DNA from: Acidobacteriota bacterium
GTDB lineage: Bacteria; Acidobacteriota; Terriglobia; Terriglobales; SCQP01
Direction of reading: 5' to 3'
Assembly (NCBI GenBank): GCA_021818955.1
Contig: JAKASR010000011.1
Coordinates: 1 to 64,000 of the forward strand
Length of the DNA stretch: 64,000 nucleotides
Of this stretch, positions 47,166 to 58,163 are shown piece after piece (within the stretch, counting starts at the first letter, position 1; every line of letters begins with the position of its first letter). Below the pieces are notes generated by a model, which saw only the letters and a list, made by a program, of their open reading frames with translations, searched no databases and was not told where the DNA came from. Made by a program: the position numbers and the translations under genes.

Positions 47166-48428
47166 TTACTCCGCACCGGGCGAGGCGGCGCGAGCGCGCA
47201 TCGATTCGGAATAGCTGTGCGGGCGCAGCTGATAGCGCTGCAATTTATTGAGCAGGGCGCGATAGCTGATATTAAGCACGCGGGCGGCGCTGCTGCGGTT
47301 CCAGCGAGTTTCTTCCAGCACGCGCGCGATGGTTTCGCGCTCCAACTCGTCTTTGGCATTGCGAACAATCGCCTTCAGGTCGCGGCCCTGGAGCGGCTCC
47401 GGCGCGGCGGCGGCAGGGGAAAGAGCGGCGGCGAGCGCTACCGGAGCGGCGGCGCGGCGCGGCGCGGCATGCAATTCATGCAGCACCTCATCGCCGAAGA
47501 TAAGATAGCGCTTGATCACGTTTTCCAGTTCGCGCACGTTGCCCGGCCATTCGTAATCGAAGCAGATCCGCAGCAGTTCCGGCGAAAACGGGCGGGGCTC
47601 GCAACCGTATTGTTGGGCAAAGCGCTCGAGATTGTATTGCAGGAGCGGCTCGATATCTTCCTGACGTTCGCGCAGCGGCGGCAGGGTCAGGGAGAAAACG
47701 TTCAGGCGGAAAAACAGGTCTTCGCGAAAGCGCTTTTCCAGCAACGCCTGATGCACGTTGATGTTGGTGGCGGCCAGCACGCGCACGTCGGCATACACTT
47801 CGGTGCGCCCGCCCAGGCGGGTAAAGCGGTGGTCCTGCAAAACATGCAGCAGTTTGGCTTGCAGCATGGGCGACATCTCGCCGATTTCATCGAGCAGGAT
47901 CGTACCCTTCTGGCAAAGCTCGAATTTGCCCGGTTTGCTGCGCATCGCGCCGGTGAATGCGCCGGGCTCATAGCCGAACAGTTCGCTTTCCAGCAATTCA
48001 TCCGGCAAGGCGGCGCAGTTGACCTTGAGGAAGCGGTGATGACGGCGCTCGGAATGGTGGTGAATCAGGCGGGCCACCGCTTCCTTGCCACAGCCGCTTT
48101 CGCCCAGAATCAACACCGGCACGTCGAATTGAGCGAGCTGTTGGCTGCGCTCAAAGATTGCCTGCATGCTCGGACTGCGGGCGATAAACTGCCCATCGCC
48201 TTCCAGCGGCTCACTGATCACTGACTCGCCGGCTGACTCGCGCGGCAATGAGACCAGGGAATGCAAGCCGCGGCCGACTTCGGGCGCGAGCGAGTCCAGG
48301 CGTTGGGGCAAGCTGGCGGGGTTGGAAACGGCCAGGGGCACGGCGCAGCCACTGGCGCCGGCACGCATCGGGTTAGGATTCGAACGGGGATTCACCAGGC
48401 TGAAGGTTGACCTCATAAGTTCTCTCAT
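47166..48428 (-). CDS. Sigma-54-dependent activator without a receiver domain
   Basis: An AAA+ enhancer-binding protein that opens sigma-54 promoters. The 420-residue protein has a short N-terminal region (1-80) with no receiver, GAF or PAS domain. Walker A is GESGCGKEAV, the sigma-54 contact loop is GAFTGA, and Walker B is GTILLDEIGEM. The C-terminal Fis helix-turn-helix reads RWNRSSAARVLNISYRALLNKL. Lacking a receiver, its activity may depend on a partner or on expression level. It is paralogous to the activator at 53537. Confidence 0.94.
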   Translation of the reverse strand: MRELMRSTFSLVNPRSNPNPMRAGASGCAVPLAVSNPASLPQRLDSLAPEVGRGLHSLVSLPRESAGESVISEPLEGDGQFIARSPSMQAIFERSQQLAQFDVPVLILGESGCGKEAVARLIHHHSERRHHRFLKVNCAALPDELLESELFGYEPGAFTGAMRSKPGKFELCQKGTILLDEIGEMSPMLQAKLLHVLQDHRFTRLGGRTEVYADVRVLAATNINVHQALLEKRFREDLFFRLNVFSLTLPPLRERQEDIEPLLQYNLERFAQQYGCEPRPFSPELLRICFDYEWPGNVRELENVIKRYLIFGDEVLHELHAAPRRAAAPVALAAALSPAAAAPEPLQGRDLKAIVRNAKDELERETIARVLEETRWNRSSAARVLNISYRALLNKLQRYQLRPHSYSESMRARAASPGAE

Positions 48429-48619: not shown

Positions 48620-49027
48620 TTAGCTAATGGCTTCGGCGCGGGAATGGGGCGTCTCCGGACCGAGCATTGCTTGCACTACGGACAGCAACTGCGAGGCCAG
48701 ATGTTTTTTTGATAAAAACGCCTGCGCGCCACACTCCAGCGCGGCGGTGCGATAGTGGGGCTCGGCATGCACGCTGCAGACCAGGATTTTGCAGGCGGGC
48801 CAGTCGGCGCGAATGCCGCGGATGACCTCCAGCCCGCTGCAGCCGGGCATGGCCAGATCCAGGATGACCAGATCGGGATGCCAGAGTCGGGTCTGGGTAA
48901 TGGCTTCCCGCCCATCGCTGGCCTCGCGGACCTGGTAATGGCCGGAGTCTTCTTCCAAGATACGGCGGGCGAGCTGGCGGAAATACCGCTCGTCGTCAGC
49001 GATGAGAACATGCTTCAGCCCAGGCAT
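48620..49027 (-). CDS. Single-domain response regulator (CheY-like)
   Basis: A 135-residue stand-alone receiver. The acidic pair is in LIADDERYF, the phosphorylated Asp in LVILDLAMPG, and the conserved Lys in AFLSKKH. No output domain follows; the C-terminus is a short polar tail. It lies between the receiver-less sigma-54 activator and the stressosome operon, all on the minus strand, so it may relay a signal between them. That link is inference. Confidence 0.9.
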   Translation of the reverse strand: MPGLKHVLIADDERYFRQLARRILEEDSGHYQVREASDGREAITQTRLWHPDLVILDLAMPGCSGLEVIRGIRADWPACKILVCSVHAEPHYRTAALECGAQAFLSKKHLASQLLSVVQAMLGPETPHSRAEAIS

Positions 49028-49297: not shown

Positions 49298-49933
49298 TTA
49301 CGGCTCGATCATGCCACGGCGGATGGCATAACGCACCAGCCCGGCAACAGAGTGAATATTGAGTTTTTCCATGATATGGCCGCGGTGCGATTCGGCGGTT
49401 TTGACGCTGATTCCGAGCAGGACGGCGATTTCCTTGGTGCTTTTTCCTTCCGCCACCAGTTGTAAAACCTGGCGCTCGCGCGAGCCCAGGGAATCGGGGG
49501 CAGGTTCGGAGTTGCTCAGGTAGGCGCGGACGACCGTGCCGGAGACATCGGGGCTCAGGAACAATCCACCCCGCAGCGCTTCCTGCACGGCTTGCAGCAA
49601 TTCGGAAGCGGACTTGCTTTTCAATACATATCCGCTAATGCCGGTCTGCAGCGCCTGAAGCACATAAGGCTCTTCGATGTGCATGGTCAGCAGCACCACG
49701 CGCGTCTGGGGAGCGGTGCGGATGATTTCGCGAGCAGCCTCCATACCGTTGAGCAAGGGCATGCGGACATCGAGGATGGCCACCTGGGGATGCAACGCCT
49801 GCGCCAGGCGGACGGCTTCCTGGCCGTCGGCGGCTTCGCCTACGATTTCATAGCCGGCTTTCTCGAGCAGGGCGCGAAAGCCCTGGCGCACCACTTCATG
49901 ATCATCAGCCAGCAGCAATCGTGCCAGCGCCAT
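49298..49933 (-). CDS. NarL-family response regulator, output of the stressosome operon
   Basis: ATG 49933 follows GGGAGGT and gives 211 residues. The receiver (1-120) has Asp55 in VAILDVRMPL and Lys105 in YVLKSKS. The LuxR helix-turn-helix (about 146-211) reads LGSRERQVLQLVAEGKSTKEIAVLLGIS. It overlaps the kinase gene by 29 bases and is last in the operon. It is the probable transcriptional output of the rsbRSTX-kinase module. Confidence 0.94.
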   Translation of the reverse strand: MALARLLLADDHEVVRQGFRALLEKAGYEIVGEAADGQEAVRLAQALHPQVAILDVRMPLLNGMEAAREIIRTAPQTRVVLLTMHIEEPYVLQALQTGISGYVLKSKSASELLQAVQEALRGGLFLSPDVSGTVVRAYLSNSEPAPDSLGSRERQVLQLVAEGKSTKEIAVLLGISVKTAESHRGHIMEKLNIHSVAGLVRYAIRRGMIEP

Positions 49934-50855
49934 AGTGACCTCCCGCCGGCAAGGGCAACGATAGTGAAATCGTGGTGCCCGCGCCCGGTTTGGATTCGAT
50001 CTGCATTTCGCCGCCCAGGCTGCGCACCCGCTCGCGCATGCCCAGCAGGCCAAGGCTGTGCCCCGAGCCGGCCTGGCGCGGGTCGAAACCACAGCCATTA
50101 TCCTCGATCTTGAGTTCAATGTGCTGGGAATCGGACTGTAAGGCCAACCGCGCGCGGGTGGCGCGCGCGTGCCGCACTAGATTATTCAAGCCTTCCTGAG
50201 CGCTGCGATAGAACGCCAATTCGAAAGCGGGGGGCAAGCGTTGGCGCACCCGATCTTCCACTTGGATGCCGATGCCGGAACGGGCGGCGATGCCCTGCGC
50301 CAGAAAATCCAGCGCCGGGCCCAAACCCAAATCGTCGAGAATCGTCGGGCGCAACTCGTGCGAGAGGCGGCGCAACTGGGTTTCGACCGCTTCCAGCATA
50401 TCGCGGACCTCGTCCAGAAAGGGCGTAGCCGAAGGCGATAATTCTTTGCGCGCCTGATCCACCCGGACAAAAACGCAGGTGAGTAACTGGCCGGATTCAT
50501 CATGGAGCGCATGGGCAATCTTGCGCAACTCGTCTTCCAGTCGCTGATTGATGCTGCGCAGGGCGCTATTGGCCTCGCTAAAGCCACGCAGCGACATCTC
50601 GAAGCTGGCCAGCGATTCCGCCAGCAAGTGTCCGGCGGCCAGCACGCGATCGGGGGAAACCCCGGTGAGCAAGCCGGCCAGCACGCGATGATGGATATCA
50701 ATCAAGGGCAGCATGCCGCGCCCTTCGTTGAGCAGGCGGCGGCCGAGCGCGTAGGCATCCAGCAGCGCGGCTTCGCTATCCTCGCGCAGGTAGGATTCCA
50801 GCGCCTGGCGATAGAGACTGGCGGGATCGGGTTGTTTACTGGGGTTACCGGCCAA
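49905..50855 (-). CDS. Histidine kinase with RsbU-like N-terminal domain
   Basis: A 316-residue soluble kinase. The phosphoacceptor is His118 in IAHALHDESGQLL (HisKA_3 type). The N-box is EGLNN (221-225), the G1 box EDNGCGF (251-257) and the G2 region GLLGMRERV. Residues 14-62, LYRQALESYLREDSEAALL...DIHHRVLAGL, resemble the RsbU N-terminal domain that binds RsbT in Bacillus. The usual PP2C phosphatase is absent and a kinase takes its place. It overlaps rsbX upstream and the NarL gene downstream. This suggests RsbT activates a kinase rather than a phosphatase. Confidence 0.88.
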   Translation of the reverse strand: MAGNPSKQPDPASLYRQALESYLREDSEAALLDAYALGRRLLNEGRGMLPLIDIHHRVLAGLLTGVSPDRVLAAGHLLAESLASFEMSLRGFSEANSALRSINQRLEDELRKIAHALHDESGQLLTCVFVRVDQARKELSPSATPFLDEVRDMLEAVETQLRRLSHELRPTILDDLGLGPALDFLAQGIAARSGIGIQVEDRVRQRLPPAFELAFYRSAQEGLNNLVRHARATRARLALQSDSQHIELKIEDNGCGFDPRQAGSGHSLGLLGMRERVRSLGGEMQIESKPGAGTTISLSLPLPAGGHYGAGTIAAG

Positions 50856-51471
50856 GACTGCCTCCGGTATAACGGGCGACGATCACCAGCGCATCATCGG
50901 CCGGCTTTGAGGGCAGATAACGGCGCAACAGGGTTTGCGCCATCACCTCGGGCGGGGAATCCGGCGCCGGCAGCGGATCGCCGTAGGGCATGCGGATTCC
51001 GTCGGTATACATTACCAGCATATCGCCGGCATGGATGGGCATCATAGTGGCCTGCAGGCGGGGCAGCGTCAGCCCCACGACCCCGGAGCGCAGCAGCAGA
51101 TATTCGCGCTCGGCGTCTTGAGCGCGCACCAGCACGGCTTCGACATTGCCCACGCCCATCCAGGTCATGGTGTGATCCTGCGCATTAAAGGTGGCCAGGC
51201 TGAGGCAAACGCCGCGGCTGCCGGCCAGCATCTGGTGACAACGGCGGGTGAGGTCGATGACGGAACTGGGCGCAAAGGTTTCAAGCACCTCGCGTGCGCG
51301 CCGGGCGGCGTCGGCGGCCTCCGGGCCGTGGCCCAAGCCATCCAGGACCGCCAGCAGCGCCCCGGCGGGAGGAAAAAAGCGCACCAGGCCGGCATCGCCG
51401 GAAACCGACTCTCCCGGCTTGGTGAAAGCGCTGCTGGCCCAATCGAGCATGGACATCAACGCAGTTCCCAT
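50845..51471 (-). CDS. rsbX: RsbX-like PP2C phosphatase
   Basis: A 208-residue protein of the PP2C/SpoIIE fold. Metal-binding acids are seen in AVLDGLGHGPEAADAA (Asp44, Gly45), MYTDGIR (Asp157) and ADDALVIV (Asp192/193). In Bacillus RsbX dephosphorylates RsbS and RsbR and resets the stressosome. It overlaps rsbT by 16 bases upstream and the kinase gene by 11 bases downstream. Confidence 0.9.
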   Translation of the reverse strand: MGTALMSMLDWASSAFTKPGESVSGDAGLVRFFPPAGALLAVLDGLGHGPEAADAARRAREVLETFAPSSVIDLTRRCHQMLAGSRGVCLSLATFNAQDHTMTWMGVGNVEAVLVRAQDAEREYLLLRSGVVGLTLPRLQATMMPIHAGDMLVMYTDGIRMPYGDPLPAPDSPPEVMAQTLLRRYLPSKPADDALVIVARYTGGSLGR

Positions 51472-51860
51472 TTCACTGCCGTGACGACCGTGCCTTGCCC
51501 GGGGAGGGAACGGATTTCAAAGCTGTCCATCAAGCGCTTGACACCGGGCAGCCCGAGGCCCAGCCCGCCAGAGGTGGAAAAACCATCCTGCAGGGCGCGT
51601 TCGATATCGGCGATGCCCGGCCCCTGATCGCTCGCCACCACCATCACCCCGCGGCGCCCGCCCTCATGGAGCAAGCGCAATTCGATTTCGCCTTCGCGCG
51701 CATATAACAGGATGTTGCGCGCCAGTTCGGAGATGGCGGTCGCCAGCAAGGTGATATCGATGGAGGCAAAGCCCGCCTGCAAGCCCAACGCCCGCCCTTT
51801 CTGTCGCGCAGCCAGGACGTCGGTGTCGGCCTTGATCGGGATATGTTCGCTAATGGCCAC
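51456..51860 (-). CDS. rsbT: RsbT-like serine/threonine kinase
   Basis: The 134-residue GHKL-fold kinase phosphorylates RsbS and RsbR and is released on stress to activate a target. The N-box is SELARN (44-49), the G1 motif SDQGPGI has Asp78, and the G2 motif is GGLGLGLPGVKRLMD. Length and sequence match RsbT rather than RsbW. It overlaps rsbS by 11 bases. The kinase with the RsbU-like domain, encoded two genes on, is the likely target. Confidence 0.93.
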   Translation of the reverse strand: MAISEHIPIKADTDVLAARQKGRALGLQAGFASIDITLLATAISELARNILLYAREGEIELRLLHEGGRRGVMVVASDQGPGIADIERALQDGFSTSGGLGLGLPGVKRLMDSFEIRSLPGQGTVVTAVKWELR

Positions 51861-52275
51861 GGCGATCGCGGGTTGGGCTCTTACCGGCCGGGGGCCGAAG
51901 ACCCGGGGCCGCCGCTTTGGCGGCGCGCTGTTTGCGGTTCAGATATGCCAATCCTTCTTCCAGATCGAGCGCAGTGGCGACCCCCTCCAGAGAGAGTCCC
52001 AACTGCACCATGGCAAAGGCAAGGTCGGCATGAATGCCGACAATCACGGTTTCGGCGCCGCGAAACCCGGTCATATGGGCAATATCCCGCAAGGTGCGGC
52101 AGGCAAAGGAATCCAGCACATCGACCGCGGTGACGTCCACGATCAAACCGCGGGAACGATAGCGGCCCACCTGCTCCACCAGCGTGCGCCGCAACTGCGC
52201 CAGATCGGCGTCAGTCAAAGCGGATTGCACGGTGGCAATCAGATACGGCCCCTGCTTGAGTACAGGGACATCCAC
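51850..52275 (-). CDS. rsbS: RsbS-like STAS domain protein of the stressosome
   Basis: A STAS-fold protein that holds RsbT in the stressosome core. In 141 residues it has the phospho-site region VDVLDSFACRTLRDI, with Ser56 at the position RsbT phosphorylates in Bacillus, and GADLAFAMVQLGLSLEGV-like helix sequence. A basic, Pro-rich C-terminal tail of about 25 residues extends beyond the usual RsbS. It lies 32 bases downstream of rsbR. Confidence 0.92.
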   Translation of the reverse strand: MDVPVLKQGPYLIATVQSALTDADLAQLRRTLVEQVGRYRSRGLIVDVTAVDVLDSFACRTLRDIAHMTGFRGAETVIVGIHADLAFAMVQLGLSLEGVATALDLEEGLAYLNRKQRAAKAAAPGLRPPAGKSPTRDRRGH

Positions 52276-52307
52276 TGCGCGCTCCTTTCAGTCCGGTCCG
52301 GGGCGAA

Positions 52308-53228
52308 TCAGGCGTCCACGGCGTCGCTGGAAAATTGCATCACTTTGTAGCCCAGCAGGCGCTCCGCTTCTTCTATGCCGCCCTGCAAATCGCCGACGGT
52401 GGTCATCTTGCCCAGGTCGACGCCGATGGTGACCAGCGTCTGCGCGATTTCAGGCGACAGGCCGGTCACAATCACGGTGGCGCCGAGCAGGCGCGAAGCC
52501 TCGACGGTTTGTACCAGGTGGTTGGCCACGGTGGCGTCCATGGCGGCCACGCCGGTGATATCGATGACCACCACCTTGGCGCGGTTGGTACGGATGCCGC
52601 GCAAAAGTTGTTCGGTCAGCTGGCGCGCGCGCTGGGGATCGATGACCCCGATGATGGGCAGAATCAACAGCCGCTCGCGCACCTGCAACACCGGCGTGGA
52701 GAGCTCGCGAATGGCTTCCTGCTGCTCGCGGATGATGCGCTCGCGTTCCTGCACGAAGCCCACGGATACGGTATTGGCGATGCGGTTGGCGGCGGGCTCG
52801 TAGGCGTCGAGAATGCGGTTGAGCTTGGTGAAATCACCCTGATATTTTGCAAACAGCGAACGCGCCAGCACGTCGCGCAACAGCAGCACAATGCCGATTA
52901 CCTCGTGGGTTTCGACGCCGCGGGGGATGATGCGCTCGGAGAGGTTGCGGGCGTAGGCCTGCAAAGCTTCAAAAGTGCCGGTTTCCAGCGCCTCGACGTA
53001 GTTGTCGTACACCGAGGTCGCTTCCGCGAAGACCTCTTCCTTCGTCATCGCCGTCAACAGTTCCGCCTCGGTGATGCGCCGCGCCCATTCCTCGCGCAAC
53101 TGTGTGCGGTTTTGGCGCAGGTGCGCCACCAACTCGCGCAACAGCGACGTAGTGGATTCCGGGCCGGGTATGGACTTGGATTGCAAGGCCCTCGCCGCTG
53201 CCGCGGCGTAACTTCTAGAACCTTTCAT
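52308..53228 (-). CDS. rsbR: RsbR-like stressosome sensor
   Basis: The 306-residue protein has a variable N-terminal sensor domain (about 20-170, RsbRD-like with four-helix pattern) and a C-terminal STAS domain (about 180-300). The STAS phospho-site loop reads ITGVAAMDATVANHL: the Thr sits one residue later than in the common DTxVANH form (Ala232-Thr233). The second site Thr264 in EIAQTLV is kept. A strong ribosome binding site (GGGGAGG) precedes ATG 53228. It is first in the minus-strand operon. Confidence 0.92.
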   Translation of the reverse strand: MKGSRSYAAAAARALQSKSIPGPESTTSLLRELVAHLRQNRTQLREEWARRITEAELLTAMTKEEVFAEATSVYDNYVEALETGTFEALQAYARNLSERIIPRGVETHEVIGIVLLLRDVLARSLFAKYQGDFTKLNRILDAYEPAANRIANTVSVGFVQERERIIREQQEAIRELSTPVLQVRERLLILPIIGVIDPQRARQLTEQLLRGIRTNRAKVVVIDITGVAAMDATVANHLVQTVEASRLLGATVIVTGLSPEIAQTLVTIGVDLGKMTTVGDLQGGIEEAERLLGYKVMQFSSDAVDA

Positions 53229-53504: not shown

Positions 53505-53519
53505 TGGCAGTGTAAGTGC
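53505..53519 (+). promoter_or_regulatory. Candidate sigma-54 promoter before the second activator
   Basis: TGGCAG-N5-GTGC at 53505-53519, with the essential GG and GC spaced by ten bases. Two positions depart from TGGCAC-N5-TTGC. It would start transcription near 53531, only about six bases before ATG 53537. Confidence 0.5.
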
Positions 53520-53536
53520 AATTTCGTGGTGTAGCC

Positions 53537-54625
53537 ATGAAAGCTCCTGACTGGACGCCCTCGTCGAGTTTGCTCAACCCGCCAGGCACGGTGGATAACG
53601 GGGAAGAATTAACGCCGCCGGAAGAAGTGATCTTCGGCGTCAGCCCCGCCATGCAACTGGTCCGCACGCGAATTGAGCGGATTGCGCCAACTAATATTCC
53701 CATCCTGATCACCGGCGAAAGCGGCACCGGCAAAGAGGTGATCGCTCGCATGATCCACCGCCATTCCAAATGGGCTTCGGGTCCTTTGGTCAAGGTCAAT
53801 TGTCCGGCCATCCCCGGCAGCCTGCTGGAAAGCGAACTGTTTGGTTATGAGAAAGGCGCATTTACCGGCGCCAATCTTACCAAACCGGGACGCGTGGAGT
53901 TGGCGCATGAGGGGACGCTGTTTCTCGACGAAATCGGGGAACTGGATCCGGGACTGCAGTCCAAGCTGCTGCAATTGCTGCAGGAAAATTGCTTCATGCG
54001 CCTGGGTGCGCGGCAGGAAAGCCGGGTGCGGATGCGTTTTCTGTGCGCCACCAATCGAAATCTGGAAGTCGAGGTGGAAGCGCGGCGTTTTCGGCAGGAC
54101 CTCTATTACCGCATCAACGTGGTTAGCCTGACGCTGCCGCCTTTGCGCGAACGCGCCCAGGACATCCCGGTGCTGGTGGAGTACTTCTTACGCCAGTTAT
54201 CAGCCCGCTATGGGCGTCCTTACGAGCCGCTCATTCCGGCGCAGATGGCCATGCTGCGCGCCTATAACTGGCCGGGCAACATCCGCGAGTTGGAAAACCA
54301 GATCAAAAGCTACGTCATCCTGGGCACGCTGCAACACGTGGAAAACGAGGCGTCGCACCGGTCCGCCGACGCGGGCGCGCGGCTGGCGGGAGAAATCAGC
54401 CCCGACGGATCTTTCCCGCTGAAAAACGTCACCCGCCGGGCTATTCACGAAATGGAGCGGGAAATCATCCTGAAAGTGCTGGAAGCAAACCAATGGAATC
54501 GCAAACAAACCGCCCAGGTCTTACGCATCAGCTATCGCGCGCTGTTGTACAAACTGAAGGAAGCCGGCATCACGCGGCGGCGCAATCCGCTGCCGGTGGC
54601 GCCGCCCAGCGAGCCGGCGGCCTAA
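53537..54625 (+). CDS. Sigma-54-dependent activator of the exopolysaccharide locus
   Basis: ATG 53537 gives 362 residues. After about 30 unrecognised residues come Walker A GESGTGKEV, the sigma-54 loop GAFTGAN, Walker B GTLFLDEIGEL, and the C-terminal Fis helix-turn-helix QWNRKQTAQVLRISYRALLYKL. No receiver is present. It resembles PrsR-type regulators of exosortase-linked polysaccharide loci, minus the receiver. Its stop overlaps the next gene by one base, tying it to the export genes. Confidence 0.92.
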   Translation: MKAPDWTPSSSLLNPPGTVDNGEELTPPEEVIFGVSPAMQLVRTRIERIAPTNIPILITGESGTGKEVIARMIHRHSKWASGPLVKVNCPAIPGSLLESELFGYEKGAFTGANLTKPGRVELAHEGTLFLDEIGELDPGLQSKLLQLLQENCFMRLGARQESRVRMRFLCATNRNLEVEVEARRFRQDLYYRINVVSLTLPPLRERAQDIPVLVEYFLRQLSARYGRPYEPLIPAQMAMLRAYNWPGNIRELENQIKSYVILGTLQHVENEASHRSADAGARLAGEISPDGSFPLKNVTRRAIHEMEREIILKVLEANQWNRKQTAQVLRISYRALLYKLKEAGITRRRNPLPVAPPSEPAA

Positions 54626-55215
54626 TGCGGCCAGCCGCGGCGCTGGCGCTGGGGTTGGGGTTGGGATTGAGCCTCTGGGCTGCCAAGCCCACCGGCAAGC
54701 CGGCGCCGGCGCCGCAAAAACCGCATGCGCGCAATTACGTCATTGGCATCGGCGACGTGCTCGATGTGGACGTTTGGCAAAGCAAAGAAGCCTCGAAAGT
54801 GGTGCCGGTGCGCCCCGATGGTGAAATCTCGCTGCCCCTGGCCGGCGAAATTCGCGCCAACGGGCGCACGCCGGCCCGCTTGCAGCAACGCATTGCCGCC
54901 AAGCTCAGCCGCTTTATGGATCACCCTTCGGTGACGGTCATCGTGCAGCAGGTGGGCAGCCGCTTTTTCAGCATCATGGGCCAAGTCCAGAAGCCGGGGC
55001 AGTTTCCGCTGCTGACGCCGACCTGGCTGTTGCAGGCTCTGGCCGAGGCCGGCGGATTCACGCCTTTCGCCAATCGCGGCGGCATTCTGCTGATTCGCGT
55101 GACCGCGAAAGGACAGCAACTCCGCTACAAGGTCAATTACAACGACATCATCAACGGCAGCAAGCCGTTTGAGAACTTTCGCCTGAAGCCGGGCGACACC
55201 ATCGTGGTGCCCTAA
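54625..55215 (+). CDS. Wza-like polysaccharide export protein
   Basis: ATG 54625 overlaps the activator's stop (TAATG). The 196-residue protein has a signal peptide (ALALGLGLGLSLWAAK), then the Poly_export domain YVIGIGDVLDVDVWQSKEAS and an SLBB-like domain (GQVQKPGQFPLLTPTWLLQALAEAGG). It ends LKPGDTIVVP, the usual finish. No lipobox Cys is visible, unlike classic Wza, so its membrane anchoring is unclear. It forms the periplasmic and outer-membrane part of the export channel. Confidence 0.9.
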   Translation: MRPAAALALGLGLGLSLWAAKPTGKPAPAPQKPHARNYVIGIGDVLDVDVWQSKEASKVVPVRPDGEISLPLAGEIRANGRTPARLQQRIAAKLSRFMDHPSVTVIVQQVGSRFFSIMGQVQKPGQFPLLTPTWLLQALAEAGGFTPFANRGGILLIRVTAKGQQLRYKVNYNDIINGSKPFENFRLKPGDTIVVP

Positions 55216-55220
55216 ACAGC

Positions 55221-56555
55221 ATGAAAATGCTTGCTCATCTTCTACCGTTGGCCGCCGCCGGAACCCTGGCGCTGGTTCTAGCCGTTCCCCGCCTGCAAGC
55301 GCAAGCTCGGCCGGAAGCCTCGACCACGGGCGGCATCATTCAGGACTTCGGCTGGTCCGAGCAGAGCGCGTACAACAGCAACCCCGGCGGCAATAATGCT
55401 AAAACTTTGGCCAGCCCGGAGCAGGACCTGGATGGGTTTATTCAATTTGGCGGCGAAGATCAGATCAATGGCTGGTCGGTGCGCTATCAGCCGCTGCTCC
55501 GCTATTACCTGTCCTCGCCCCAGCTCAATGGCTTGAGCCACAGCTTGCGGGCCAGCTTTCACTGGATGCCCTCGCCGCGCTGGCGATTGGAGGGGAAAGG
55601 CTGGGGCATGTACGTGCGCGGTGTTCCCGGACTGGCCCTCACGGGGGTGGGAAATTCCGGCTTTCATTCCGGCTCGAATGTGCTGTCGCCCACCGTTCGC
55701 GAGGCGGACGGCAAGGCGCAAATGACGCTGCAGTATTTGATCAGCCCGCGCGCGATCTGGGAAATCTTCAGCGGTTATCACATCCGCCGTTATCCGCACT
55801 CCAACTTCGTGAAAACCGGCACCAACGATTTGAGTTATTTCGACTACGGGCTGGGCTTCATTCTGCAATCGACGCCGCGCACGCAATGGTCGGTGCTGGC
55901 CCGCAACGACAACATGGCGTTTGGCACGGGCAGCTCGAGCGCGCGCCAGCCGGGCATATTGGCTCCGGTCTCGCCCACCTCGCACATCGCCGCCCAAAGC
56001 GTGACGCTGAACTGGATGCATCGCTTCACGCACCAGGCCTCGCTGCGCATTTTCGGCGGGCCGGAATACAGCGTGCTGCATGAAACCATGCCGTTCACGC
56101 TGCTGAATCTCAATTTCACCCTGCGCATTCACCGCGTCCGCACTTATCCCAGCTTTGGTGCTGTTTTTTGGGAGCGGAAAGGCATCTGGACCTGGCAAAT
56201 CGCCGGCCGGCAGCAGATCAGCAACGGCGGCGGCCTGTTTCCCGTGCCGGTGGTCAGCGATACAGGGCAGTTTCGCCTCGACCATCCGTTGATGAGCGGC
56301 TGGCATTCGCAGATGGGCGTGAACTACACCCACCTGCGCACTCTCAGCAGCGGCATCCTGGGCGCGCACGTAAATGCGATTACGGCCGGCATGGTTTTGC
56401 GGCATCGCATCAGCCGGCATTTGATGCTGAATTTGGAAGGCAACTACCTGATTCAACGCGCCGGCGGATTTTTGCGCGTGCCGCCGGCCGTCAATCAAAC
56501 CTTTGTCGGGGTGCGCGTTTCGTACGATTTGCGCGGCTGGCCCAATCTGGAGTAA
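55221..56555 (+). CDS. Exopolysaccharide-associated outer-membrane beta-barrel protein
   Basis: A 444-residue exported protein with a clear signal peptide (LLPLAAAGTLALVLAVPRLQAQA). Alternating strands with aromatic ends, such as VRYQPLLRYYLSSPQLNG and HMLNLEGNYLIQ-like segments, fit a beta-barrel. It occupies the position of the TIGR03016-type outer-membrane proteins of exosortase-linked polysaccharide loci, but I cannot confirm membership by eye. It starts five bases after the export gene. Confidence 0.7.
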   Translation: MKMLAHLLPLAAAGTLALVLAVPRLQAQARPEASTTGGIIQDFGWSEQSAYNSNPGGNNAKTLASPEQDLDGFIQFGGEDQINGWSVRYQPLLRYYLSSPQLNGLSHSLRASFHWMPSPRWRLEGKGWGMYVRGVPGLALTGVGNSGFHSGSNVLSPTVREADGKAQMTLQYLISPRAIWEIFSGYHIRRYPHSNFVKTGTNDLSYFDYGLGFILQSTPRTQWSVLARNDNMAFGTGSSSARQPGILAPVSPTSHIAAQSVTLNWMHRFTHQASLRIFGGPEYSVLHETMPFTLLNLNFTLRIHRVRTYPSFGAVFWERKGIWTWQIAGRQQISNGGGLFPVPVVSDTGQFRLDHPLMSGWHSQMGVNYTHLRTLSSGILGAHVNAITAGMVLRHRISRHLMLNLEGNYLIQRAGGFLRVPPAVNQTFVGVRVSYDLRGWPNLE

Positions 56556-58163
56556 ATGCCCATGCCTACTTCCCTCAACTCCGTCACGCGTCCGCCCATG
56601 ACCTGGCAGGCGATTCAGTCCATGGCCTTGCGCCGGCGCTGGTGGTTTCTCGTCCCTTTTTTCCTGGCCTGGGCGGTGGCGTTCACGCTCAGTTGGGTGT
56701 TGCCGAAAAAATACCAATCGCAAGCGCTGCTGGTGGTCGACCAGCAGACGGTGCCGGCCACTTACGTGCAGCCGAATGTGGTCTTCAATGCCGACACCCT
56801 GCTGCAAAACATGGCGCAGCGCATTCTCAGCCGCGCGCGCCTGGAAAAGATCATGCAGCGTTACAATCTTTATCCTAAAATCCAGGCCACGCTGGGGCCG
56901 GATGCGGCGGTGCGGGCGCTGCGCAAGGATATCAGCATCACCCCTGTACAATTGGGCAACCTGGCGCCGGACAACGCCCATAACTGGACCGCGTTCAGCA
57001 TTGCCTATACCGGCAGCTCGCCCGAACAGGCGCGGCAGGTTGCCAGCCGGCTCACCTCGGCCTTCATCGAAGAGAACCTGCGCGTCACCCAGCAAGCTTC
57101 CAATCGCACCACTTCGTTTTTACAACAGCAATGGGCGCAGGCGCAGCAGGCGGTCAAGCTCGACGAGCAGAATATCCAGAAGTTCGAGCGCAATAATCTC
57201 GGCACCCTGCCGGGACAAAGCCAGGCCAACCTGGCGGTGGTGTTGAGCCTGGAAAACCGGTTGGGCGACGCGCAAGGCGCGCTGCTGCGCAGCCAGCAGC
57301 GCATCGCCTATGACGAAAATCTGCTGAAACAGCAGCGTAACTGGGCCGCGGCCGCGCCGCTGGAACAACGGCTGCAAAATTTGCGGATGAAGCTGGCCGA
57401 TCTGCGCTCGCGCTATACCGAGCAATACCCCTCGATACCTCAGGTGGAAGGCGAAATTGCCCGCTTGCAAGCCCGGCTGAAAAAGCTTATGGCGGCGCCC
57501 GCCGGCGGCGCGGCCGGCGCGCCCGCCGGCGCCTCCGGCGCGAATACGGCTAACGACACCGAGGCCGCCCTGGCGGGCATGCCGACGCGCACGCAAATTA
57601 AAAGCGATATGCAGTCGGAAAAACTGATGGAATCGCGTGAAAAGCGCCAGGTCGCCTCGCTCAACCAGGAATTACAGCAGTATCAATTCCGCCTCAATCA
57701 GGAACCTGTGCGCGGCAACCAGCTCGCCAGCCTGGAAGCGCAATACCAACAGGACCAAAGCAATGCCACCGCGCTGCTGCTGCGCCTGAACAACTCCAAA
57801 CTGGCTTCGCGGCTGGAACAGCGCCAGGGCGGCGCTCAGTTCCGCATCGTAGATGCGCCCAACCTGCCGGAAAAACCGGTCTGGCCGAAGCCCTTGCAGT
57901 TCAGCGGATTTGGCCTGCTGGCCGGCATCGCGCTGGGCCTGGCCATCACCGCCGGGGTGGAACTGCGGCAAGATCAGATTCATTCCTCGCAGGAGCTGGC
58001 GCAATTTGCGCTGCCCCCGATCTTGTGCCGCATCCCGCCCTTGCAGAGCACCATGGACCGGGTGCGCAAACGCTCGCTGCACACGCTGGAATGGGCCATC
58101 GTCACTGTCTTATTGGGCGCCATGATCGTCGGCAACTATTTGATCCTGCACCTGCACCGTTAA
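56556..58163 (+). CDS. Polysaccharide chain-length determinant (Wzz/GumC-like)
   Basis: A 535-residue inner-membrane protein that sets polymer length with the BY-kinase. The N-terminal membrane helix follows RRRWWFLVPFFLAWAV. A long periplasmic coiled-coil region runs about 60-440, and the proline-rich motif PEKPVWPKPLQFSG leads to the second helix near 450. A third hydrophobic segment at the very C-terminus (IVTVLLGAMIVGNYLIL) is unusual. It directly follows the barrel gene, and the kinase gene starts four bases after it. Confidence 0.9.
   Translation: MPMPTSLNSVTRPPMTWQAIQSMALRRRWWFLVPFFLAWAVAFTLSWVLPKKYQSQALLVVDQQTVPATYVQPNVVFNADTLLQNMAQRILSRARLEKIMQRYNLYPKIQATLGPDAAVRALRKDISITPVQLGNLAPDNAHNWTAFSIAYTGSSPEQARQVASRLTSAFIEENLRVTQQASNRTTSFLQQQWAQAQQAVKLDEQNIQKFERNNLGTLPGQSQANLAVVLSLENRLGDAQGALLRSQQRIAYDENLLKQQRNWAAAAPLEQRLQNLRMKLADLRSRYTEQYPSIPQVEGEIARLQARLKKLMAAPAGGAAGAPAGASGANTANDTEAALAGMPTRTQIKSDMQSEKLMESREKRQVASLNQELQQYQFRLNQEPVRGNQLASLEAQYQQDQSNATALLLRLNNSKLASRLEQRQGGAQFRIVDAPNLPEKPVWPKPLQFSGFGLLAGIALGLAITAGVELRQDQIHSSQELAQFALPPILCRIPPLQSTMDRVRKRSLHTLEWAIVTVLLGAMIVGNYLILHLHR

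Follow-up and report, generated by a model that had tools for sequence, protein, structure and literature searches.

In Bacillus subtilis, RsbT binds the N-terminal domain of RsbU, orders its coiled-coil linker and activates the phosphatase (PMC12143880). RsbU_N domains also occur on other signaling proteins. Heinz et al. (2022) found them on proteins encoded after rsbR-rsbS-rsbT-rsbX (RSTX) modules in alpha-, beta- and gammaproteobacteria and proposed these proteins as RsbT targets (PMC9237108). The eLife 2025 report presents an AlphaFold2 (AF2) dimer of a gammaproteobacterial RsbU_N histidine kinase, ‘NreB’ (MBI3545564.1), proposes modular exchange (PMC12143880, Fig. 5E) and cites reported RsbT control of Moorella thermoacetica MtG (RsbU_N-GAF-GGDEF). 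An RsbU_N kinase in a stressosome operon is, thus, a published concept (Heinz 2022; eLife 2025), and the wiring was noted before in some Proteobacteria. Here we describe an rsbR-rsbS-rsbT-rsbX-kinase-NarL regulator operon, given in transcription order, on the minus strand at 49298–53228 of a 64,000-nt stretch (the window) from an Acidobacteriota bacterium (GCA_021818955.1, contig JAKASR010000011.1, forward strand, positions 1–64,000). We consider it probable that the encoded stressosome controls a cytoplasmic two-component system by docking of RsbT on the RsbU_N domain of the kinase.

The original prediction, made from the DNA letters, had proposed this six-gene order with most genes overlapping. 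Profile and structure-library searches recovered every gene in its place on the minus strand:

52308..53228, minus strand: rsbR, RsbR co-antagonist/sensor with a non-heme-globin-like N-domain (~26–160), a signaling helix and STAS (55.7 bits)
51850..52275, minus strand: rsbS, RsbS scaffold (STAS, 40.6 bits) with target Ser S56 in ‘LDSF’
51456..51860, minus strand: rsbT, RsbT switch kinase (GHKL ATPase; HATPase_c/HATPase_c_2, HATPase_c 48.3 bits)
50845..51471, minus strand: rsbX, RsbX-type PP2C feedback phosphatase (SpoIIE/PP2C, 61.4 bits)
49905..50855, minus strand: soluble histidine kinase RsbU_N-HisKA_3-HATPase_c, 316 aa, TTG start (Pfam, AF2 model)
49298..49933, minus strand: NarL-family response regulator (RR) with REC (101.6 bits) and GerE helix-turn-helix (HTH; 70 bits), phospho-acceptor D55

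Neighboring genes overlap at four of the five junctions, by 11, 16, 11 and 29 nt in order after rsbR/rsbS, which is the sole non-overlapping junction with a 32-nt gap. GGAGG-type ribosome sites precede both the TTG start of the kinase and the ATG of the regulator at 49933. By domain content, the first three genes are an RST module, comprising an RsbR with sensor and STAS, a single-STAS RsbS with its target Ser and a GHKL RsbT from the same operon. RsbR aligned with Listeria RsbR over residues 33–296 (E 9e-35), and its T264 is the kept equivalent of T205/T209, while the T171/T175 equivalent is Ala in the window. The RsbR sensor was assigned to the non-heme globin type because the AF2 model matched both the Listeria stressosome RsbR 7b0u (Z 19.8, root-mean-square deviation (r.m.s.d.) 4.6, 266 residues) and the RsbR N-domain 2bnl (Z 14.3, r.m.s.d. 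2.3, 131 residues). RsbS aligned with Listeria RsbS over residues 1–114 with the conserved target Ser present (E 6e-22), and RsbX with the RsbX structure 3w40 (E 8e-14).

The locus has RsbR, RsbS, RsbT, RsbX and the RsbU_N docking domain in common with the B. subtilis RsbRST-RsbU-SigB pathway, but carries a HisKA_3 kinase for the PP2C phosphatase and a NarL regulator for SigB; unlike that pathway, RsbV, RsbW and SigB are absent at the window locus. As in the proteobacterial modules of Heinz et al., rsbR-S-T-X is followed by an RsbU_N-bearing signaling protein, whereas the RsbR proteins of that survey have a globin-coupled (heme) sensor and the window RsbR is of the non-heme RsbR/RsbRD type in an acidobacterial host (PMC9237108). 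‘NreB’ comes from another phylum and has the same proposed linker mechanism as the window kinase; its account, in the part available, gives no regulator, operator or wide survey (PMC12143880). MtG likewise bears RsbU_N on a non-phosphatase output in a stressosome system, although its output is cyclic di-GMP and that of the window a phosphorelay.

By analogy, a kinase in the place of the phosphatase within the RsbT-RsbU chain is the simplest reading of this gene order. A core of RsbR and RsbS would hold RsbT, which upon stress would phosphorylate RsbR and RsbS and then leave the stressosome. Once free, RsbT would dock on RsbU_N in the kinase dimer, re-ordering the helix that is continuous with HisKA_3 and favoring autophosphorylation at H118. 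Phosphorylation of D55 of the NarL regulator by the kinase would then alter transcription, and RsbX would reset the stressosome. A palindrome before rsbR, TCAGGTNNNNACCTGA, is probably the binding site of the regulator in many relatives, by which the module would control its own expression.

The kinase was resolved into three domains:

50595..50813, minus strand: RsbU_N domain, residues 15–87, the predicted RsbT docking site (PF08673, 40.6 bits versus a cut-off of 25.5)
50340..50531, minus strand: HisKA_3 dimerization/phospho-acceptor domain, residues 109–172, with H118-D119-x-x-x-Q123 (PF07730, 33 bits)
49947..50213, minus strand: HATPase_c catalytic domain, residues 215–303 (PF02518, 56.4 bits)

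The profile search named in the original prediction as a refuting test found the RsbU_N domain well above cut-off; the extent first given, residues 14–62, was too short. It is the only RsbU_N in its own genome (43.7 bits in the genome-wide search). The kinase alone aligned weakly with the solved B. subtilis RsbU (E 0.003), and a profile of kinase relatives did so at 1.3e-6 (hhalign), with the alignment extending through the linker. The C-terminal PP2C/SpoIIE domain of RsbU has no match in the kinase, where HisKA_3 and HATPase_c follow RsbU_N instead, and the proposed replacement of the phosphatase by a HisKA_3 kinase was borne out. In the AF2 model (pLDDT 84), short helices at residues 11–25, 28–43 and 48–62 precede a fourth N-domain helix, 68–138, that runs unbroken into the HisKA_3 helix. 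This predicted continuity supports the docking model, as it is the same architecture by which RsbT activates RsbU (PMC12143880). The HDxxxQ motif, HATPase_c and an adjoining REC-GerE partner identify a HisKA_3/NarL two-component pair, and H118 is invariant and D119 and Q123 nearly invariant among 26 sequences. The kinase core and RR also co-evolve (partial distance correlation 0.81), supporting the last step from kinase to regulator.

Gene co-occurrence ties this kinase to RsbT. Among 396 Acidobacteriota genomes, RsbU_N was present in 15, RsbT of the module's type (>170 bits) in 17 and both together in 14 (Fisher 5e-22). In the three genomes with RsbT only, rsbT lies near the contig start on the minus strand, so that the next genes would be cut off, and the single RsbU_N-only genome is the weakest RsbU_N match, below cut-off. 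No RsbU_N was found in the other genomes of this sample listed under the same order as the window. A genome survey for the same fusion, which the original prediction had named as a check, searched 84,980 species genomes with the kinase N-terminus, pooled the matches with the RsbU_N genome hits and gave 58 non-duplicate RsbU_N loci from Acidobacteriota, Nitrospirota, Methylomirabilota/Rokubacteria, Gamma- and Betaproteobacteria, Armatimonadota and ANGP1. RsbT was encoded upstream of RsbU_N in 51 of these, RsbS in 47, RsbX in 48 and RsbR in 45; 53 have an RR gene downstream. At the seven loci where a kinase of this family lacks RsbU_N, RsbT was never nearby (Fisher 5e-6). The loci are akin to one another, however, and the P values imply more independent events than there were. 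The distribution is patchy, with the module in ~19 of the 95 Methylomirabilota genomes and in 1 of the 246 from Nitrospirota. The stressosome-RsbU_N kinase-regulator wiring is a widespread, tightly linked gene module. The predicted chain from stress through RsbT and kinase to NarL draws support from this co-occurrence, the multi-phylum operon linkage and the 0/7 contrast, with the RsbT-kinase contact as its conjectural link. That the kinase-NarL pair is merely a neighbor of the stressosome, with RsbU_N a plain dimerizer and another signal as input, would fit the few RsbU_N kinases that have no rsbT anywhere near them despite sizeable contigs (L046, L047, L069 and L096). We give this explanation hardly any weight in view of the co-occurrence and the 51/58 versus 0/7 contrast; moreover, the genome of L046 has RsbT at another locus, L043.

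The contact between RsbT and the kinase was assessed through residues implicated in RsbU-RsbT contact (PMC12143880), namely RsbU E24, Y28, I74 and I78 and RsbT R19 and R23. Glu occupies the E24 position in 55 of 56 RsbU_N domains, and all 25 RsbT proteins of the family keep R19 and R23. Several observations weigh on the other side. RsbU Y28, I74 and I78 are not conserved and are Leu, Ala and Ala in the window, and mirror-tree analysis of RsbT and RsbU_N (partial r ~0.05) gave no signal beyond operon co-inheritance. The linker motif L-R-x-[IL]-[NQ] (residues 99–103 of the window kinase, like RsbU L90–Q94) was rejected as proof of RsbT contact, because the R91/Q94-like motif is kept in kinases of the same family without RsbU_N (L091, L095, L097 and L099). 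For these three reasons, contact of RsbT with the kinase RsbU_N domain is graded as no more than likely. A charge pair corresponding to RsbU R91 and RsbT D92 was also rejected, as RsbT proteins of the family vary at the D92 position. This comparison uses B. subtilis RsbT numbering, checked against residues named in PMC12143880.

The sign of the RsbT effect also bears on the model, as the HDxxxQ motif suggests a bifunctional kinase/phosphatase on which RsbT could act either way. With the same wiring, RsbT docking could order the coil and lock the phosphatase state, such that stress lowers RR phosphorylation. The kinase core fold matches VraS (VIA Z 20.2, r.m.s.d. 1.7, 133 residues) and DesK (VIA Z 17.0, r.m.s.d. 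7.9, 206 residues) in a PDB search with the whole kinase model, whose rows span the core 89–304 only, the identity of the N-domain coming from sequence profiles. With that coverage, the lack of RsbU among the rows carries no weight. DesK and VraS are membrane kinases, whereas the window kinase has a soluble RsbU_N input, and the phosphatase state of DesK is linked to an ordered coil. The phosphatase signature is retained here, and RsbT acts on RsbU by ordering its linker (PMC12143880). Nevertheless, RsbT is an activator in the best-tested RsbU_N enzyme, B. subtilis RsbU, and we regard the opposite sign as rather unlikely. RsbT might also alter the kinase through Ser/Thr phosphorylation instead of stable docking, since it is itself a protein kinase whose ATP site is conserved. 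Heinz et al. propose such a route for the RsbU_N-less downstream kinase of Vibrio, D1, with which RsbT contact could not be shown (PMC9237108); as the window kinase has the docking domain that D1 is without, we judge phosphorylation very unlikely. RsbT docking that drives the kinase towards H118 autophosphorylation is retained as the preferred reading.

The input end of the module is unusually conserved. In an alignment of the window and relatives (A5), mean identity across phyla was 84% for the RsbR N-domain and 91% for the RsbR STAS, compared to 46–49% for RsbU_N and the kinase HATPase. This stands out because the sensing RsbR N-domains have been presented as the portion of the stressosome that varies (PMC4976288). 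Recent horizontal spread was rejected as the sole cause, and the near saturation of four-fold-degenerate sites (0.46 versus 0.37 random) calls for strong purifying selection on RsbR. The pattern suggests strong selection at the RsbR sensor for a shared ligand or interface.

At the output end, a candidate operator emerged from relatives. An unsupervised inverted-repeat count over 42 rsbR upstream regions found TCAGGTNNNNACCTGA in 11–13 of them, against at most 3 in shuffles. A matrix built from 22 pre-rsbR sites, in a partly in-sample test, located 46 sites across 0.86 Mb but nothing in shuffled sequence; about half of the rsbR upstream regions had a site, and no shuffle reached such a score. 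Exact copies numbered one to three per genome in 13 of 17 genomes with none for the reversed control, where the informative part is the rarity elsewhere, many of the genomes having been chosen for a site at rsbR. Examples are as follows:

L037:675-690, L079:4573-4588 and L103:4356-4371, among others: palindrome TCAGGTNNNNACCTGA before rsbR in several phyla

One site found independently precedes a second rsbR (L126). In relatives, REC-only or second RR genes near the operon also often have the site in front. The RR is its likely binder because sites precede RR genes, including the kinase and RR loci without stressosome L095 and L099. The GerE recognition helix is well conserved, and the NarL regulator probably binds TCAGGTNNNNACCTGA in many relatives. 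In some Acidobacteriota, a second shared stretch, ‘TCGGGGTATTCATGG’, lies ~20 nt downstream of the palindrome.

A further point to set against the full scheme is that the window's own rsbR is not preceded by the palindrome (best −2.4 bits), so the operator applies to the family and not demonstrably to this strain. Nor does it precede the window's REC-only gene:

48620..49027, minus strand: stand-alone receiver-domain protein downstream of the regulator (REC, 96.8 bits), tentatively a possible accessory

The best window site (38509, 18 bits) was discarded because of its distance from the operon, and the single exact match in this genome, on contig C10, does not exceed chance expectation. A larger regulon is not claimed, as the other exact sites occur in about the chance number beside unrelated genes:

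L123: exact palindrome at an ABC transporter
L127: exact palindrome at a reprolysin-like peptidase
L125: exact palindrome at a no-family protein

Both inputs and outputs of the module appear to be exchanged among relatives. In five loci, the RsbR sensor (RsbR profile ~5 to 158–161) takes the place of RsbU_N and is joined straight to a HisKA_3 kinase of the same family, and in one Acidobacteriota locus RsbU_N joins another output:

L091:6380-7681, L092:1521-2822, L097:83-1360, L100:6449-7615 and L101:6452-7618: RsbR-sensor/kinase fusions next to a NarL regulator
L044:4068-5906: RsbU_N-GAF-AAA+ sigma-54 activator-Fis HTH after rsbRSTX

Pfam RsbRD_N scored over cut-off in the L101 fusion, which branches among RsbU_N kinases in the tree, and two metagenome-assembled genomes with fusions (L065/L100 and L078/L097) carry the full operon too. 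The fusion is predicted to be a stressosome-free shortcut of the same pathway. The L044 stressosome is apparently wired to sigma-54 transcription; a second RsbT-like match follows rsbX there. Two further Acidobacteriota loci encode RsbU_N proteins after rsbRSTX: a PAS-GAF hybrid kinase in L038 and a HisKA kinase in L039.

Elsewhere in the genome, no SigB/F/G-type sigma factor scored over the TIGR02980 cut-off, which 1 of 14 control genomes passes. The original claim of ‘no sigma-B or RsbW’, thus, agrees with the genome-wide search for sigma-B; for RsbW it is valid only for this operon, because contig C28 carries an RsbW/SpoIIAB-like gene (C28:39253-39624; L048:7221-8023) that overlaps a STAS antagonist gene. 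This pair adjoins genes that read as DisA/CdaA-like and GlmM-like, with no sigma factor beside it. In the window, two open reading frames resembling sigma-54 activators by sequence alone bracket the operon, and an apparent exopolysaccharide export/chain-length cluster adjoins it (47166-48428, minus strand; 53516-54625 and 54493-58163, plus strand).

In the open literature, subscription papers being outside the scope, we found nothing on the module in Acidobacteriota, no account of TCAGGTNNNNACCTGA before rsbR or of RsbR-sensor/kinase fusions, no RsbU_N/sigma-54-activator output and no RsbR sensor 84% identical between phyla at near-saturated synonymous sites. We give about even chances to a broader view in which soil bacteria of several phyla share this module as a self-contained and widespread stress switch. 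Its own operator would be TCAGGTNNNNACCTGA, bound by the NarL regulator, and its near-frozen RsbR sensor would point to one common essential signal. Its inputs and outputs would be swappable, with the RsbR sensor joined to the same kinase so as to bypass the stressosome and RsbU_N joined to a sigma-54 activator. The operon bears on stressosome outputs outside Bacillus-type bacteria. Being compact and soluble, the system of RsbR, RsbS, RsbT, RsbX, kinase and regulator could allow a full stressosome-to-DNA chain to be rebuilt in vitro, and relatives supply a ready-made candidate operator for a reporter. The strongly conserved sensor suggests one signal common to bacteria of several phyla.

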